Below, in pieces: positions 7,310-14,039 of a DNA stretch of 44,893 nucleotides; within the stretch, counting starts at the first letter, position 1; each line of letters starts with the position of its first letter. The position numbers and the translations under genes are program-made. The notes beneath the pieces are model-generated. The model searched no databases and was not told where the DNA came from. It saw nothing but the letters and a program-made list of their open reading frames with translations. This DNA is from an uncultured Gammaproteobacteria bacterium (GTDB lineage: Bacteria > Pseudomonadota > Gammaproteobacteria > CAKMZV01). The DNA is taken from NCBI GenBank assembly GCA_929200535.1, contig CAKMZV010000019.1:1-44893 (forward strand), written 5' to 3'.

Positions 7310-8053
7310 ATGGCTTATTTAGAGGAAATAACAAGCTCTTATCAGAACGTCTGCAACAATAGTAGTTTAGCCCCCCAACAAATAAAAAAATCTCTGCAAT
7401 ATGAAAATTGGATAAATGCAAGCGATGAAATAACACGTCAAATCACTAAACACAAAAATTACTCAAAAATTAATGCCAATATATTATTTCCATTGGAAAA
7501 TGCCTCGCTTAATAGCATAACCTTTCCACCTGAAATAAAAAAAACGATAAAGCAGTGCTATCATTTATGTCGAATCAGAATAGCCGCTAAAGAGTACGAC
7601 ATAGGAGATTTACATTCTGATGACTTACTTGAATTCTACCAAGAATCTATTAATAAGAGAAAACCTTTAATTGGAATATGGGTTTTTGTAGAGCAACAAT
7701 GCTTAGAAAGTGGCAATGATTTGTTTAATCTAATCAACTTATTGGGCTTATATCACTGGTATGAGCTATCTTTTGAAACTCTGTACGTAATGTGGAAAAT
7801 CGATAATCTAAAATGTCGCAAACCAAATATATTGGATGCTGGATTAGCTTTTTATTTCCAACAACAACCTAAAGGGGAAACTGGAAAGACTCGCAATTTA
7901 ACAACAGGGGAACTTGGTATTGAAGAATGGATTTCTGTAGAAAATCCAACCAATCCCACTCCCACAAAAGCAATAGCCTTACAGGCAAAACAACAATTAA
8001 ACAAAGACATTTTTTTTAAAACCAATGCAAAAAGAATCCAAAAAACAAAGTAA
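7310..8053 (+). CDS. Protein of unknown function, gene 1 of the methyltransferase/ATPase cassette
   Basis: I do not recognise this 247-residue protein. It is soluble, with no signal peptide or membrane span, and looks mixed helical. The N-terminal 80 residues (EITSSYQNVCNNSSLAPQQI onward) are polar. A helical middle contains CYHLCRIRIAAKEYDIGDLH and WVFVEQQCLESGNDLFNLIN. The C-terminal 60 residues are rich in Thr, Pro and Lys (QPKGETGKTRNLTTGELGIE) and could be flexible. No ATP-binding, nuclease or helix-turn-helix motif is visible. It is the first gene of a five-gene plus-strand run, and its last 29 bases overlap the start of gene 2, which points to coupled translation. An effector-adaptor or sensor role would be a guess. 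Confidence 0.75.
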   Translation: MAYLEEITSSYQNVCNNSSLAPQQIKKSLQYENWINASDEITRQITKHKNYSKINANILFPLENASLNSITFPPEIKKTIKQCYHLCRIRIAAKEYDIGDLHSDDLLEFYQESINKRKPLIGIWVFVEQQCLESGNDLFNLINLLGLYHWYELSFETLYVMWKIDNLKCRKPNILDAGLAFYFQQQPKGETGKTRNLTTGELGIEEWISVENPTNPTPTKAIALQAKQQLNKDIFFKTNAKRIQKTK

Positions 8054-9065
8054 TGATAAGCTGAGTGTGGAAAATATTATACACACGCACTTTAACGAGC
8101 AGAAACAAGCTGACAAATACGTGCTAAATCGCTTGCAACACCAATTTGATAAGGCACCACCTACTTTGGTTCACCGACATATGGAGCAATATGCAACTGA
8201 TATTCTTGAACAAATTTCAGTTAAAATAGAAGATAAAAAAAGAATTAGTATTGCTTGCTTGGAGGCTTTGAAAAAGCTATCAAAACCACAAAAATCGTAT
8301 TCCCTGAAAAATTTAATCGCCCTATCAGAGTTATCTTATTTTGTCTTGCAGCTTGCTAAAAATAACCCTAATGCCTATTTCAATGCAGAGCAAAAAAAAG
8401 AATGGGCGAAAGAACTATCCAACCTAAATTTGGAAGAAGAGACAATTTCAACTAATAAGGATAAAAACAATCGCCTCAAAAACCTTATAGAAGTCGTATA
8501 TATTTTTGAAATTCTATTATCAGTTAAATTGTCATTTAACTGGGATAACTTACGTAACAAAATTTGCGAATTTCACGAAAATGCTGACGAATATATCCTT
8601 GAATTGCTATTTATGGCTTGCCAATATACGACTAATTGGAACCAAGAAAGTATGTCGATTTTATTGGAATGGTCAACAGAACAGAAGAAGCTACCCAATA
8701 ATTTTTATGAGCAATTTTTTCTAAATTATTTACTAAAGTGCAAACGAGAAACATCAGAAGCCAATAAAACAAAACAAAATGATTTTATTACCCATATTTT
8801 AACAAGCAGCCGTTTTTTTAACACATTAGACAAGCAGAAAAAAACAATTTTATGCGAATCATTGTTAAAGGCGAGCCGACTATTTGAATCAAAAAGTTTT
8901 AAAATTTTAAACGATGAGAGAATAAAATATCTCGAAAACACATTAGAAAAATGGAAAAAATCCACACAAGAAAAAGTACACATAGAAACTAGCGAAACTA
9001 ATAACGACTTAATGCAGAAAACCTACAGTAAATTCTCACCATCAACAACGTCTGCTGTCACTTAA
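8025..9065 (+). CDS. Helical protein of unknown function, gene 2 of the cassette
   Basis: A 346-residue soluble protein that appears almost entirely alpha-helical, with many Lys, Asn, Glu and Leu residues and heptad-like stretches (for example LEACLEAL-type spacing near residues 70-110 and LENTLEKWKKSTQEKVHIET near the C-terminus). No catalytic motif is recognised. It starts inside gene 1 (29-base overlap, ATG at 8025), and the ATPase gene begins 12 bases after its stop. The repeated helical texture could form a scaffold, as in HEAT-like or TPR-like proteins, but I cannot identify a repeat unit. The C-terminal 30 residues are Ser/Thr-rich and probably disordered. Confidence 0.75.
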   Translation: MQKESKKQSNDKLSVENIIHTHFNEQKQADKYVLNRLQHQFDKAPPTLVHRHMEQYATDILEQISVKIEDKKRISIACLEALKKLSKPQKSYSLKNLIALSELSYFVLQLAKNNPNAYFNAEQKKEWAKELSNLNLEEETISTNKDKNNRLKNLIEVVYIFEILLSVKLSFNWDNLRNKICEFHENADEYILELLFMACQYTTNWNQESMSILLEWSTEQKKLPNNFYEQFFLNYLLKCKRETSEANKTKQNDFITHILTSSRFFNTLDKQKKTILCESLLKASRLFESKSFKILNDERIKYLENTLEKWKKSTQEKVHIETSETNNDLMQKTYSKFSPSTTSAVT

Positions 9066-9077
9066 AACTCTTAAAAT

Positions 9078-11918
9078 ATGCCTTCCCTAAATACCCAATT
9101 CATTTGCTTTTACTCTTATAAAGGTGGTGTCGGACGTAGTACAGCACTCACCAATTTGGCAATATTGCATGCCCGCCAAGGGAAGAAAGTGCTAATTATT
9201 GATTTAGATTTAGAGGCGCCGGGGCAATCACAAAGCGGATTATTTAATGCTCAATACATACAAGAGGCAAAAACACTAAAGGGTGGCTTTACCGATTTAT
9301 GCCTTGAATGGCAAAAAAGTTTTAAGGAAAACAAGGCCGCTTTAGCTTGGCAACTAAAAGATTATACAGTGCGTAGCACAGAGCTTGATGATCGAACTTT
9401 CGAAGGCGTTGGGGATATTTACTTACTACCAGCAACTAAACAGCTTGATAATCAGTACGCTCAAACATTACATCAACTCAACTGGGATGATTTTTTTGGT
9501 GATTCCATCAAAGGTTATTTGTTAATGGCAGACATCCGCACCTATTGCGAACTTGAGGAATATGATAGTGTATTTATTGACTCGCGCACAGGCTTAAGTG
9601 ACCCCTACTATATGGCAACTTCTTGGCTAACTGATAGCACAGTATGTTTCACCTTATTAAATGAACAAAGCATCGCTGGCTGCAAAGGGGCAATGAATGC
9701 GATTAATTCACCTTCCTTTATTAAAGGTTATGGCAAAAAGCATATTGTGCCAGTGGCTTGTATGCTCCCTCCCTCACTGGGAGAAAGCGTCCAAAAAAGA
9801 ATAAATGAAATTAAGGATAAGGAATGGTTAGAGCTAAACGAACAGGGCTTTGCCTCAACTATTTTATACGATGAAACAATGGCATTAAGAGCAACTTTGC
9901 CATTACTTAATGCAGATAATAATATGAGCCTTAATATCAATTCCTACACGCAATCCATCATACAAATAGATGAAGCTTTGGATAAAAAAGACACAGACTA
10001 CTTATTAACGAAACAACGAGTAAAACAAAGCTACAAAGGAGAATTAGAAAACCCTTTTCCTAATTTACGCATTGAATACTGCAATGCTAAAGAAGTTGAA
10101 AAATATTACTCTAACTTATACCCAAGCATTCGAGAACAGCTTCTTGCTTTTCCACCAATCATTATTTTTGGTTCTCGTGGTACTGGCAAAACCACCCTTG
10201 CTCGACATCTGGACTATGAAACTCAATTAGTACAATTTGCTAAAGAAAACCCAAATCAAGAACCTATACCTGAGCATTTCCCTCAAGTGGTGCTATGGAT
10301 ACGACAAGATAGCGATCTTTTAGCTGCATTTAATACCCCAGATGCATATAAGCAAGTTATCTATAACCAGCTATTTAGTGCCTTTTTAGATTTAATGGTG
10401 TTGCGAAAAATGTTGGAAGCAATGGATAAAATTGAGGGCATACAAGCCTGGGTGAATTCTACCACTAAACTCTTTAAAATCCTTAGCAGAGAAATGGGGA
10501 GAAAAGAGGGCGAGCCATTAAATAATCTTGAACAATTCAGTAACTATTTAGACGAATATTTGTCTGACATTCGCGGCTATATAAATAATCCAAATGATAG
10601 CAATAAGCCCTATATGTTTTTAAGCAACACTCTACTTAAGCTATTAACTGAGCAATTTAAACCGGAAATTCAATCTTATTTTGTGGTAATTTTAGATGAA
10701 GTTGAAAACTACGCCAGCTACCAACAACGCACTCTAAACACTCGAGTTAAGCATATTAAGCGTAGTAACTTAGTCACTTATAAATTATTAGCACGCAATG
10801 AGGGAATTAAAACATCAAAAACCGATGCAACAGGTCAATTATTAGAAGTTACTCACGACTATAAGGCTTATTTTTTAGATGAGGCGATGAACTTTCAAGA
10901 ATTTCATGATCAAGTAAATACATTTATACACCACAGCCTACAACAATCGCCGAGTTTCTCACATTTTGGAGAAGCCAAAACTTTTTTAAATGCTCTGACA
11001 CCACAAGAAGAAGCACAAGAAATGTTTGAAACAAGAAGGCAAACAACACACCCCCCCCCCTTAGTCTCTTATGTTAAAAAAGAGCTAAAACTTCCCTCAG
11101 AACATCCTTTTTTACAATGGCTTGACCAAGAGCAAAACATATTGCGTCAGGCAGTAGCAGTAATCCTTCTCAATCAAGGAAAGGAAATTGAACAAGTGCT
11201 TAATGAGTTTAGCAAAAATAGTTCAAAGGCTAAAGACTGGTATCATAATTATTCCACAGGAGCATTATTTTGGTTATGCCGATTGTACAACAAAAATAAA
11301 ATATATGCAGGTATCAATGATTTGGTAGGAGTTTCCGGCAATAATATTCGTGTCGTGGTACTCATATTAGGGCAGCTGTTTCAAGAGTGGATTGAAAATA
11401 AAGATACAGGTACCTTATTTTTTTCAGTCAAACAGCAAAATAAAGTCATACACGAACAATCACAAACACAAGTCAAACTACTCGATCGCTTTAAATTTAC
11501 TGACAATCGATTAGACCGCTTTGTAGCTCGCTTAGGGACTCTATTTAGGGCACTCCATAAGAGTCCTAAACAAAGTGAGCCAGAGATTAACCATTTTTCA
11601 ATTCAAGGGGATGTGGATGAAAAAATAGATAAGTATTTACGCCTATGCCGACAAGAAAATATACTACAATGGATGCCCAGTAACAAACAAAAAAATAGTA
11701 GTGATTATGTACCCGATGCTTATCGCTTTAATCCTGTATATGCTCCTGATTTTGATATTTCTTGGCGGCGTAAGAAAAAATTAATTCTAACGTCTAAACA
11801 AATTGAAATACTTTGTTTTGGGCAGGATAATGAGTGGAAAACTATACATAAAAATATAGTAAAAAAACACGACTCTTCAAATATTCCATCAGTTGATCAA
11901 CAACCTACTTTACTGTAA
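9078..11918 (+). CDS. Fusion of a KGGVGR-type ParA-like ATPase with an RGTGKT AAA ATPase, gene 3 of the cassette
   Basis: This 946-residue protein joins two P-loop modules. Residues 1 to about 300 resemble ParA/MinD ATPases: FYSYKGGVGRSTALTNLA (K15 signature lysine, but R20 where the usual Walker lysine stands), then IIDLDLEAPGQS (D42, D44) and VFIDSRTGLSDPYY near residue 168. From about 325 a second module starts with NAKEVEKYY and has Walker A GSRGTGKT (365-372) and Walker B VVILDEVENY (D540, E541), resembling ORC/Cdc6-like or STAND-like bacterial ATPases. The C-terminal 280 residues include helical stretches of the winged-helix style, but no named domain. A run of ten C at 11051-11060 lies in codons 658-661. 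The family is one I associate with bacterial conflict genes; that role here is inferred from the neighbouring methyltransferase. Confidence 0.85.
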   Translation: MPSLNTQFICFYSYKGGVGRSTALTNLAILHARQGKKVLIIDLDLEAPGQSQSGLFNAQYIQEAKTLKGGFTDLCLEWQKSFKENKAALAWQLKDYTVRSTELDDRTFEGVGDIYLLPATKQLDNQYAQTLHQLNWDDFFGDSIKGYLLMADIRTYCELEEYDSVFIDSRTGLSDPYYMATSWLTDSTVCFTLLNEQSIAGCKGAMNAINSPSFIKGYGKKHIVPVACMLPPSLGESVQKRINEIKDKEWLELNEQGFASTILYDETMALRATLPLLNADNNMSLNINSYTQSIIQIDEALDKKDTDYLLTKQRVKQSYKGELENPFPNLRIEYCNAKEVEKYYSNLYPSIREQLLAFPPIIIFGSRGTGKTTLARHLDYETQLVQFAKENPNQEPIPEHFPQVVLWIRQDSDLLAAFNTPDAYKQVIYNQLFSAFLDLMVLRKMLEAMDKIEGIQAWVNSTTKLFKILSREMGRKEGEPLNNLEQFSNYLDEYLSDIRGYINNPNDSNKPYMFLSNTLLKLLTEQFKPEIQSYFVVILDEVENYASYQQRTLNTRVKHIKRSNLVTYKLLARNEGIKTSKTDATGQLLEVTHDYKAYFLDEAMNFQEFHDQVNTFIHHSLQQSPSFSHFGEAKTFLNALTPQEEAQEMFETRRQTTHPPPLVSYVKKELKLPSEHPFLQWLDQEQNILRQAVAVILLNQGKEIEQVLNEFSKNSSKAKDWYHNYSTGALFWLCRLYNKNKIYAGINDLVGVSGNNIRVVVLILGQLFQEWIENKDTGTLFFSVKQQNKVIHEQSQTQVKLLDRFKFTDNRLDRFVARLGTLFRALHKSPKQSEPEINHFSIQGDVDEKIDKYLRLCRQENILQWMPSNKQKNSSDYVPDAYRFNPVYAPDFDISWRRKKKLILTSKQIEILCFGQDNEWKTIHKNIVKKHDSSNIPSVDQQPTLL
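11051..11060 (+). repeat. Ten-base poly-C tract within the cassette ATPase gene
   Basis: Ten consecutive C bases encode part of His658 and Pro659-661. In this AT-rich window no other C or G run that I see exceeds about six. Loss of one C would bring a TAG stop directly after the prolines (about residue 662). Gain of one C would bring a TAA stop about five codons further on. Both slips would remove the last 280 residues, as expected of a phase-variable switch. Confidence 0.8.
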
Positions 11919-11919
11919 A

Positions 11920-12858
11920 ATGCAGACTATTACTGAGTATAGCCCCACAGCAGAAAAACATAGAAAATTAGCAAACTTGCATCCGTGGGATATTTTATTG
12001 ACTGGTGATAATAATGAATATAGGTGTACGCATACAATTAAACAATTGAAACAACATATGCAGCCTTTTCAGTATATACAACTTAGCCGAGAAAAAAATC
12101 AAGGCGGTAATGGGCAGTTTATACTTAAGTCGATAGATTGTCCGAATAAATACGAAGAAAAATGCTCTGCTCAACTGCTTAATTTAAAATTAACTACATT
12201 AATCGAAAACTGTTCTCAAAAATCAACAAATATTCATATTCTTATGGATATTACTAGCTTAGAATTAGATGCTATTTTACATATCCAACATATTTGCCAA
12301 CAAGAAAAATATCGATTATTTGCCTTATACACCTCGCCTGCAAAATATAAGGAACGAAAAAAATTCAAACTTCAATTAAACACAATTGCACAACCTCCGG
12401 GTTACACAAGTTTAACCGTAAATAGCACCTCCCCTATTCCTCATATTATTATTTTAGGTTTCGATTCTGGCAGAGCTGAACGCTTTTTGACACAGTATCC
12501 TCAGTGGCAATTTGAAGATATATTTGCTATTTATAGTAGCCCAGCCTACATTAAAGATGGGGAGAGAATGGCACTAAATGCTAACTCTTGGATAGATAGT
12601 ATTCCTGAAAAACAACGACTATCAATTGACGGTCTTAACCCTTCAGGCGTGTACCAACAATTACAAAAAATTTATACCGAAAAAAAGAGGATGGATATAG
12701 TCCCTTTAGGACCTAAATTAATGCTACTTGGTATTACAGAATTTTATTTTTCATTGCCCAAAAATGAACAAAAAAATATACGTATTTTATATGATTTCCC
12801 ACAGCCAACACCAGGTAGCACAACAGGAATCAAAAAACATTATTTATTAGAATGTTAA
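11920..12858 (+). CDS. Two-lobed protein of unknown function, gene 4 of the cassette
   Basis: About 312 residues from the ATG at 11920, one base after the stop of the ATPase gene; an upstream TTG at 11893 would overlap that gene and is less likely. I recognise no family. The protein contains two similar segments: YRLFALYTSPAKYKERKKF (F134) and DIFAIYSSPAYIKDGERMA (F202), each at the end of a hydrophobic strand. The region before the first is ILMDITSLELDAILHIQHIC and before the second PHIIILGFDSGRAERFLTQY. This alternation of short hydrophobic strands and helices suggests a duplicated Rossmann-like fold. Near the end, MDIVPLGPKLMLLGITEFYF could be another strand and helix. A ligand- or nucleotide-sensing role is possible but not shown. 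The end overlaps the methyltransferase start by seven bases. Confidence 0.75.
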   Translation: MQTITEYSPTAEKHRKLANLHPWDILLTGDNNEYRCTHTIKQLKQHMQPFQYIQLSREKNQGGNGQFILKSIDCPNKYEEKCSAQLLNLKLTTLIENCSQKSTNIHILMDITSLELDAILHIQHICQQEKYRLFALYTSPAKYKERKKFKLQLNTIAQPPGYTSLTVNSTSPIPHIIILGFDSGRAERFLTQYPQWQFEDIFAIYSSPAYIKDGERMALNANSWIDSIPEKQRLSIDGLNPSGVYQQLQKIYTEKKRMDIVPLGPKLMLLGITEFYFSLPKNEQKNIRILYDFPQPTPGSTTGIKKHYLLEC

Positions 12859-14039
12859 ATAACTTAGCACAACATTACACACACCATATCCACGCTGATT
12901 TATTAGTCAAGCAAATGGGACGCTATGTTGAACATACAAAATTGCTATCTGGCATTGATTTAGGCGCAGGAAAGGGCGTACTACTTGATGCCGCACTAAA
13001 AAAGTGGGAACAGATTAAATTTTCAGGGATTGATGTGGATTTAGACAAAAACAATCATTCTGATGCCAACAGAGTGGCTTTTTTTTCTGCGGATTTATTG
13101 ACCGATAAATCAGTCGATTTTTTAGAACATCAAAAACTTATTGATTGTTGTGATATTGCTGTTTGCAACCCTCCTTTTCAGAGCTTTCAAAACAATCAAC
13201 TATTCCGTAACTTATGCAAAATTAATAAATTTGAGGCTTGTTATAATATGCCTGTTGTAACCACAGATATTATTTTTCTATTACATAATTTACGTTTATT
13301 AAAGCCAGGTGGCTTATTAGGCATTATCCTACCTGATGGAATTTTAACAGGAAAACGCTTTCAAATACTACGCAAAAGCTTGTTGGAGACACACAACATT
13401 AAAGAAATAATTCAACTGCCAGATAAAGCCTTTTCGAGAATTGAAGTTAGAACTCATATGATTATTTTGCAAAAAAGCGTCTTGCAATCAAATAAGATTG
13501 AATTAAGGCAAGTAAATAATGAGGGGAAACTCAGCAAAAAACTAACGATTAATGATGTTCAATTAGAAAAACGAATGGATTATTCCTATTGGAAATGGCA
13601 ACTACAACAGCAGATAAAAAAAAACACCATAAAATTATCAGACTTAAATGTTGAAGTATTGCGTGGCAGTCAAACAAAATATTTTTTTGAACAACAAAAC
13701 ACACCTTATTTTCATACACAACATTTACCAACATCGCCTAAAAAAATAAGTTTCTCAATCTCCAAAGCATCAAATGTCAGAAAAGCGAAAAAGGGAGATA
13801 TTTTAATGGCACGAGTAGGTAAACGTTGCTTAGGGCGTATGACATTGGTTTGCAATGGGTCAGTTCCTATTACAGATTGTATTTACCGTATTCGAGTTCC
13901 TCAAAAACATTTAAATATTATTTGGAAATCACTCTCTTCAAGATTAGGTCAAGAATGGCTCAAAGCAAATGGACATGGCTCTTGTGCTCAAGTAATCAGC
14001 AAGAGTGATTTAATGGATTTTCCGATTCAAGGTTTTTAG
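12852..14039 (+). CDS. Adenine-type DNA methyltransferase with a single target-recognition-like domain, gene 5 of the cassette
   Basis: A 395-residue protein. The N-terminal 230 residues are an HsdM-like N6-adenine methyltransferase: SAM motif GIDLGAGKGVLLDAA (34-48), acidic SGIDVDLDKN, catalytic NPPF (106-109), and LRLLKPGGLLGIILPDGIL. From about residue 250 the sequence resembles one target-recognition half of a type I specificity subunit: VEVLRGSQTKY, then KKGDILMARVGKRCLGRMTL, PITDCIYRIRVP, and HGSCAQVISKSDLMDFPI. Methyltransferase and recognition module are therefore in one chain, but it is shorter than type IIG enzymes and has no nuclease motif. No restriction subunit is adjacent. It probably marks host DNA so that the ATPase-containing partner proteins can tell self from foreign; the second half of that sentence is inference. 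Confidence 0.85.
   Translation: MLNNLAQHYTHHIHADLLVKQMGRYVEHTKLLSGIDLGAGKGVLLDAALKKWEQIKFSGIDVDLDKNNHSDANRVAFFSADLLTDKSVDFLEHQKLIDCCDIAVCNPPFQSFQNNQLFRNLCKINKFEACYNMPVVTTDIIFLLHNLRLLKPGGLLGIILPDGILTGKRFQILRKSLLETHNIKEIIQLPDKAFSRIEVRTHMIILQKSVLQSNKIELRQVNNEGKLSKKLTINDVQLEKRMDYSYWKWQLQQQIKKNTIKLSDLNVEVLRGSQTKYFFEQQNTPYFHTQHLPTSPKKISFSISKASNVRKAKKGDILMARVGKRCLGRMTLVCNGSVPITDCIYRIRVPQKHLNIIWKSLSSRLGQEWLKANGHGSCAQVISKSDLMDFPIQGF

Follow-up and report, generated by a model that had tools for sequence, protein, structure and literature searches.

We analysed a 44,893-nucleotide stretch of contig CAKMZV010000019.1 from an uncultured Gammaproteobacteria bacterium (hereafter the window), focusing on gene C, whose product joins a KGGVGR-type ParA/MinD-like module to an ORC-CDC6-like AAA+ ATPase in one uninterrupted frame. 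Gene C is the third of five plus-strand genes, A to E, packed over positions 7310-14039 with a 29-bp overlap (A/B), a 12-bp gap (B/C), a 1-bp gap (C/D) and a 7-bp overlap (D/E), and the five genes are best explained as one operon. Comparison with relatives suggests that A to E are a variant, with a swapped effector slot, of a cassette that is widespread and predicted to act in anti-phage conflict and that consists of PRTase-CE, an ORC-like ATPase, the tandem-CARF protein CARF6 and an N6-adenine methyltransferase. We regard this reading as probable, and each step of the mechanism proposed below, taken singly, as less secure than the reading as a whole.

Both modules of C are assigned by profile. 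Residues 6-208 match the NCBIfam family NF047398 ('KGGVGR-motif variant AAA ATPase') at 1.1e-37 and 130.2 bits (cut-off 90), and residues 325-903 match the Pfam family PF24389 (ORC-CDC6-like) at 3.2e-79 and 267.6 bits (cut-off 27), spanning profile positions 1-570 of 571; judged by these sequence scores, a chance match is ruled out for both. An earlier note on this DNA had described two different P-loop modules in one chain, and this description holds, with sequence profiles backing both modules and a confident structural model backing the second half. The sequence of residues 15-21 confirms its observation that the first Walker A motif (KGGVGRS) carries arginine at position 20 while K15 is kept, and it was likewise correct that the second P-loop (GSRGTGKT) and D540/E541 are intact: K371, D540 and E541 are invariant in an alignment of ORC-like ATPases (A9). 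Its label for the second module, 'STAND- or ORC-like', was apt as well, given the full-length PF24389 match and structural matches to Cdc6, Orc1, MuB, TnsC and BrxC.

In A9, of which the window sequence is itself one row, the invariant positions comprise G365, R367, G368, G370, K371 and T372 of the Walker A motif and D540, E541, E543 and N544 of the Walker B motif. Joint alignments of both halves of C (A3 and A5-A8; A5 inspected whole, the others by identities and invariant columns) superposed the two P-loops on each other, and C was therefore modelled with AlphaFold on the ORC rows of A9 only. Between residues ~320 and 930 of that model, most ten-residue blocks average a predicted local distance difference test score (pLDDT) above 70; lower values occur in several spots and at the end. 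The nearest structures to this half are the archaeal Walker ATPases 2qen (Z 12.9) and 2fna (Z 11.9), Cdc6 (12.3), Orc1 (12.2), MuB (12.2), BrxC (10.9) and TnsC (10.7); Foldseek alone returned weak matches (best 2.2e-4).

The relatives of this ATPase define the cassette. Scanning genome contigs with the C protein as a single query yielded no relative; an alignment query then recovered loci in genomes of several phyla (68) and in viral contigs (2), which together with 9 others make 79 related loci, a few near-duplicates included (for example L066/L082, L062/L064 and L131/L150). A PRTase-CE gene (PF24390) lies before the ORC gene in 73 of the 79, namely 72 typed copies and one cut by a contig end (L090), and profile typing assigned CARF6 to 72 open reading frames (ORFs) and N6-methyltransferase to 67. 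The window keeps the order of this core, with C, D and E standing for ORC, CARF6 and N6-methyltransferase, adjacent on one strand. Gene E scores 324 bits against the cassette methyltransferase profile, but is itself among the rows from which that profile was built; its best independent match is to L112, at 37% identity. PRTase-CE was found neither in the window operon, where A and B were profile-searched, nor elsewhere in the same genome, and because it is absent both next to the ORC gene and from the genome, we file the window cassette as a variant and not as a PRTase-CE-type member. As a separate observation, 12 ORFs in the 79 loci encode dUTPase_2-like proteins, among them genes directly before the cassette at L063:8344-9009 (identified by Pfam) and L079:6332-6970.

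The six loci without PRTase-CE show what else can occupy its place. L067 carries HD-CE there, and L146 (7712-12783) and L148 (7658-12796) carry an ORF for a calcineurin-like phosphoesterase (assigned by Pfam for L146, by sequence reading only for L148), a cassette type in which a D12-class methyltransferase comes after CARF6. In L068 (7287-11950) and L069 (7532-12252) an N-terminal protein kinase is fused to the ORC ATPase, the CARF6 gene adjoins, and the methyltransferase, as read from its sequence, is of a different kind; the sixth, L070, begins inside a gene at a contig start. In our reading, the ORC-like ATPase and the tandem-CARF protein are the constant part of the cassette, in most cases joined by the methyltransferase, and the variable slot holds one enzyme or signalling domain; on the same reading, the slot in the window consists of the KGGVGR module fused to the ORC N terminus, together with A and B. 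The KGGVGR profile has no match in the 79 loci. Nor did we find a second KGGVGR-ORC fusion in draws of 274 and 398 genomes queried with the whole protein, in 369 queried with PF24389, in 321 queried with NF047398, or in plasmids and phages; these genome draws overlap partly, and the whole-protein query misses divergent ORC modules such as that of genome G021, which was found by profile only.

That the altered Walker A motif, to which the earlier note drew attention, is peculiar to C is not supported: R20 is a hallmark of the family that NCBIfam named, as NF047398, for KGGVGR. In an alignment of the window module with 19 relatives (A10), R20 is present in all 20 rows and K15, the signature lysine before GG in ParA/MinD-type proteins, in 18; D42, D44, P48, G49, D168, R170 and G172 are also invariant across the 20 rows, one of which is the window. 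With arginine as the family norm at the place of the P-loop lysine, we rejected the idea that R20 is a local lesion in C. Among 30 distinct matches to the KGGVGR profile over all fetched loci, 22 have arginine at this place and 7 have lysine, the last one lacking a readable motif; the seven lysine-bearing matches read KGGVGKT or RGGTGKS, and we regard them as ordinary P-loop proteins that passed the threshold. The structures matched by the A10 family profile are those of MinD, Soj and ArsA (best 3.8e-10, over the Walker A region), so the ParA-like assignment of the first half stands on sequence. KGGVGR modules elsewhere are fused to diverse partners, including a calcineurin-like phosphoesterase (L168, L178), TPR (L160, L177) and WD40 (L077).

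The family names of both halves of C, together with a PHROG match to ParA-like partition proteins (7.7e-10), could point to a replication or partition module in which a ParA-like ATPase and an ORC/Cdc6-like initiator serve an integrated plasmid or the chromosome. We consider this highly improbable. The first half is a KGGVGR family member and reaches 31.1 of the 180 bits needed for ParA_partition, R20 breaking the P-loop lysine of KGGxGK[ST]; no ParB-like partner occurs among the ten neighbouring genes scanned; and the ORC relatives travel with CARF6 and a methyltransferase. On one side of A to E lie two minus-strand genes for EamA-family transporters and on the other minus-strand genes for 5-formyltetrahydrofolate (5-FTHF) cyclo-ligase and transaldolase; these housekeeping neighbours also speak against partition.

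Gene D matches the PADLOC CARF6 model (3.5e-18), and its structural model (pLDDT 88.5) agrees with that assignment. Residues 170-295 form a CARF fold matching Csm6, Can2 and Card1, with Z up to 10.6 (Csm6), and residues 22-295 resemble the CARF pair of Can1, with Z 9.4 across 212 residues, and to a lesser degree SAVED domains; the Foldseek match to Card1 is at 3.2e-4. Alignment with 62 relatives shows that D keeps part of the conserved residues, namely R35, T112, Y137 and K266. Where the earlier note proposed that one part of C senses and the other drives assembly or an effector step, this division of labour is unproven: D is the likely sensor of the cassette and a better candidate than either module of C, and the KGGVGR module sits at the place of the effector or signalling enzyme.

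What D might sense was considered in the light of a second locus in the same genome (L195, G000:C18:27500-45075), a type III-B CRISPR-Cas system comprising Cmr1-6, Cas10/Cmr2 with GGED as its cyclase motif, a 986-residue fusion of reverse transcriptase (RT) with Cas1, a Csx16-bearing protein and an array of ~14 copies of a 34-nt repeat. D could respond to cyclic oligoadenylate made by this Cas10, which would make the cassette an out-of-locus CRISPR effector; the presence of Cas10/Cmr2 with a Csx16 gene in the same genome and the likeness of the D CARF folds to Csm6 and Can1 agree with this. We nevertheless think it quite unlikely. A convincing Cas10 match occurs in only 1 of 50 cassette-bearing genomes (G780, 68.7 bits), the other matches above cut-off scoring 27-37 bits, and PF22335 also matches proteins in E. 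coli, presumably GGDEF proteins. Given this rare co-occurrence, Cas10 is not required by the cassette as a class, and a Cas10-made ligand for the cassette in general is not supported. In the window genome itself, the Cas10 motif is GGED where GGDD is usual, and the second GTKP motif of D is changed.

Genes A and B, which open the operon, are orphans. Gene A has no match in Pfam, NCBIfam, PADLOC, PHROGs, plasmids or viral contigs, and a search of 258 genomes of the class recovered nothing beyond the copy in the window. For B, searches of Pfam, NCBIfam, PADLOC and PHROGs gave no confident family and searches of plasmids, phages and viral contigs no match; across the same 258 genomes it matched itself and, at 21 bits, one frame with stops. 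A profile of PRTase-CE built here does not match B, and the dUTPase_2 profile does not match A; we accordingly rejected B as a lost PRTase-CE and A as a degenerate dUTPase. Neither gene matches the neighbours of KGGVGR proteins elsewhere, which in seven loci (L179-L183, L186 and L187) include two upstream genes that recur as a pair, with products of about 280 and 197 amino acids; neither product of the L179 pair has a Pfam match.

The KGGVGR module may be a regulatory switch only, with A and/or B as new effectors that replace PRTase-CE and the fusion setting stoichiometry while replacing nothing catalytic. This account is a serious contender, although we would not put it at even chances. Its support comes from A and B lying in an operon of overlapping or nearly touching genes, from KGGVGR proteins elsewhere having other upstream genes, such as the recurring pair, and from arginine at the P-loop lysine, which speaks against a fast enzyme; Walker A lysine-to-arginine changes argue against fast catalysis. 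Against it, neither relatives nor a catalytic motif could be detected for A and B, leaving an effector activity without positive support.

On the preferred reading of a variant cassette with a swapped effector slot, the parts could work together as follows. E would methylate the DNA of its own cell. The ORC-like AAA+ ATPase, its ATP site intact, would load or oligomerise on DNA or on a phage trigger, and D, a one-chain pair of CARF folds, would bind a nucleotide ligand and gate the ATPase. The KGGVGR module would act as the output coupler: it may dimerise with nucleotide through K15, hydrolyse slowly or not at all, which we propose to be a consequence of R20, and present or activate A and/or B as the effector. 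Three observations suggest that the slot serves as the system's output, which in the window would be provided by the KGGVGR module together with A and B: the promiscuity of KGGVGR modules, the recurring upstream pair and the match of PRTase-CE proteins to the PADLOC PRTase_III-A model, which we take to represent the effector of type III-A retrons. A more specific and decidedly tentative form of this idea is that CARF6, ORC and the methyltransferase make a modular chassis with an output slot for unrelated enzymes such as PRTase-CE, HD-CE, a kinase or a phosphoesterase, and that the window holds a novel output type, a hydrolysis-impaired KGGVGR ParA-like switch incorporated in the ATPase and activating A and B as hitherto unknown effectors.

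Several points weigh against the variant-cassette reading. The fusion has been seen in one genome only; residues 1-320 of the C model have pLDDT mostly below 50, a low confidence that arises because A9 gave the first half no alignment depth; and operon position is the only ground for giving A and B a role in the system. Measured against its 62 relatives, D has changed at conserved residues (E139S, G206S and R300S, plus T265P and P267L within the GTKP motif), and its ligand binding may be altered or lost. In the ORC tree the window branch is very long (3.78, median 0.5) and may be drifting, and it stands beside a Paenibacillus sequence in a join about which the tree tool warns. The long branch and the conserved residues lost in D would also fit a decaying copy, in which fusion and PRTase-CE loss are accidents in a drifting defence locus. 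We judge decay unlikely: none of the five frames is interrupted across the 6.7 kb, and both the ORC Walker A and B residues (in A9, with the window as a row) and the KGGVGR hallmarks are kept.

The core itself appears mobile. A tblastn search matched the second half of C to 167 plasmid records and D to 141, Klebsiella accounting for 129 of each, and the core type occurs on plasmids and chromosomes of several phyla. We inspected five plasmid regions and one phage-labelled Acinetobacter contig, and in the loci that we typed the methyltransferase, PRTase-CE, the ORC-like ATPase and the D counterpart stand together; on a Moraxella plasmid the cassette has Qat and further annotated defence genes nearby. 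Because core relatives sit on conjugative Klebsiella plasmids, the cassette circulates. One such plasmid (L062) is conjugative and carries the PRTase-CE/ORC/CARF6/methyltransferase cassette together with blaTEM-1.

In domain databases the parts of this cassette are little more than names, and the comparison offers a testable view of them as one core with one interchangeable output slot, of which the window would be a natural swap experiment. A working system would assign a role to the large family of KGGVGR ATPases, whose invariant arginine at the place of the P-loop lysine has long been puzzling, and would reveal two effectors that have no known relatives.

Table 1. Positions of the operon genes and of the modules and motifs of C within the window
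Feature	Coordinates	Strand	Basis or remark
Gene A, 247 amino acids, orphan, start of cassette	7310..8053	+	29-bp overlap with B
Gene B, 346 amino acids, orphan	8025..9065	+	all-helical look by eye
Gene C, 946 amino acids, KGGVGR-ORC fusion	9078..11918	+	one uninterrupted frame
KGGVGR ParA/MinD-like module, residues 6-208 of C	9093..9701	+	NF047398, above cut-off
Deviant Walker A KGGVGRS, K15 to S21, including R20, in C	9120..9140	+	sequence
ORC-CDC6-like AAA+ module, residues 325-903 of C	10050..11786	+	PF24389 and AlphaFold model
Second Walker A GSRGTGKT, residues 365-372 of C (K371)	10170..10193	+	sequence, alignment A9
Walker B residues D540-N544 (DEVEN, within LDEVEN) of C	10695..10709	+	sequence, alignment A9
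Gene D, 312 amino acids, tandem-CARF (CARF6)	11920..12858	+	from ATG 11920; ORF list starts at TTG 11893
Gene E, 395 amino acids, N6-adenine DNA methyltransferase	12852..14039	+	PF02384 1e-16; PADLOC MTase_II PDLC03285 4.5e-72

Our literature search found no paper describing the cassette or KGGVGR ATPases. A 2020 CARF classification paper and a 2020 paper on immune components in J Bacteriol reportedly treat CARF6 or these domains. PMC7824862 was also consulted.

Set beside known systems, the window shares single features with several. With BREX it has in common the ORC/STAND-type AAA+ core, seen in both BrxC (Z 10.9) and C, and ORC/STAND ATPases are treated in a BREX paper (PMC12839542); unlike BREX, operon A-E yielded no PglZ, BrxA or BrxB in Pfam, NCBIfam and PADLOC scans. 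The first module of C resembles NF047398 proteins and the PADLOC candidate PDC-M28B in its arginine and in its DxDLEAPG-like and DSRTG motifs; the NF047398 proteins found elsewhere have a TPR, WD40 or calcineurin-like phosphoesterase domain as fusion partner or no named partner, and none was found with an ORC-like module, unlike C. The second half of C, D and E match the ORC, CARF6 and N6-methyltransferase counterparts of the PRTase-CE cassette in the same order, whereas the window has, in place of PRTase-CE, the KGGVGR-ORC fusion with two orphan genes in front. As in the window, L068 and L069 (PADLOC CARF6--CARF_STK_AAA) carry a signalling domain on the ORC N terminus and an adjoining CARF6 gene, the fused domain being a protein kinase there and the KGGVGR module in C.

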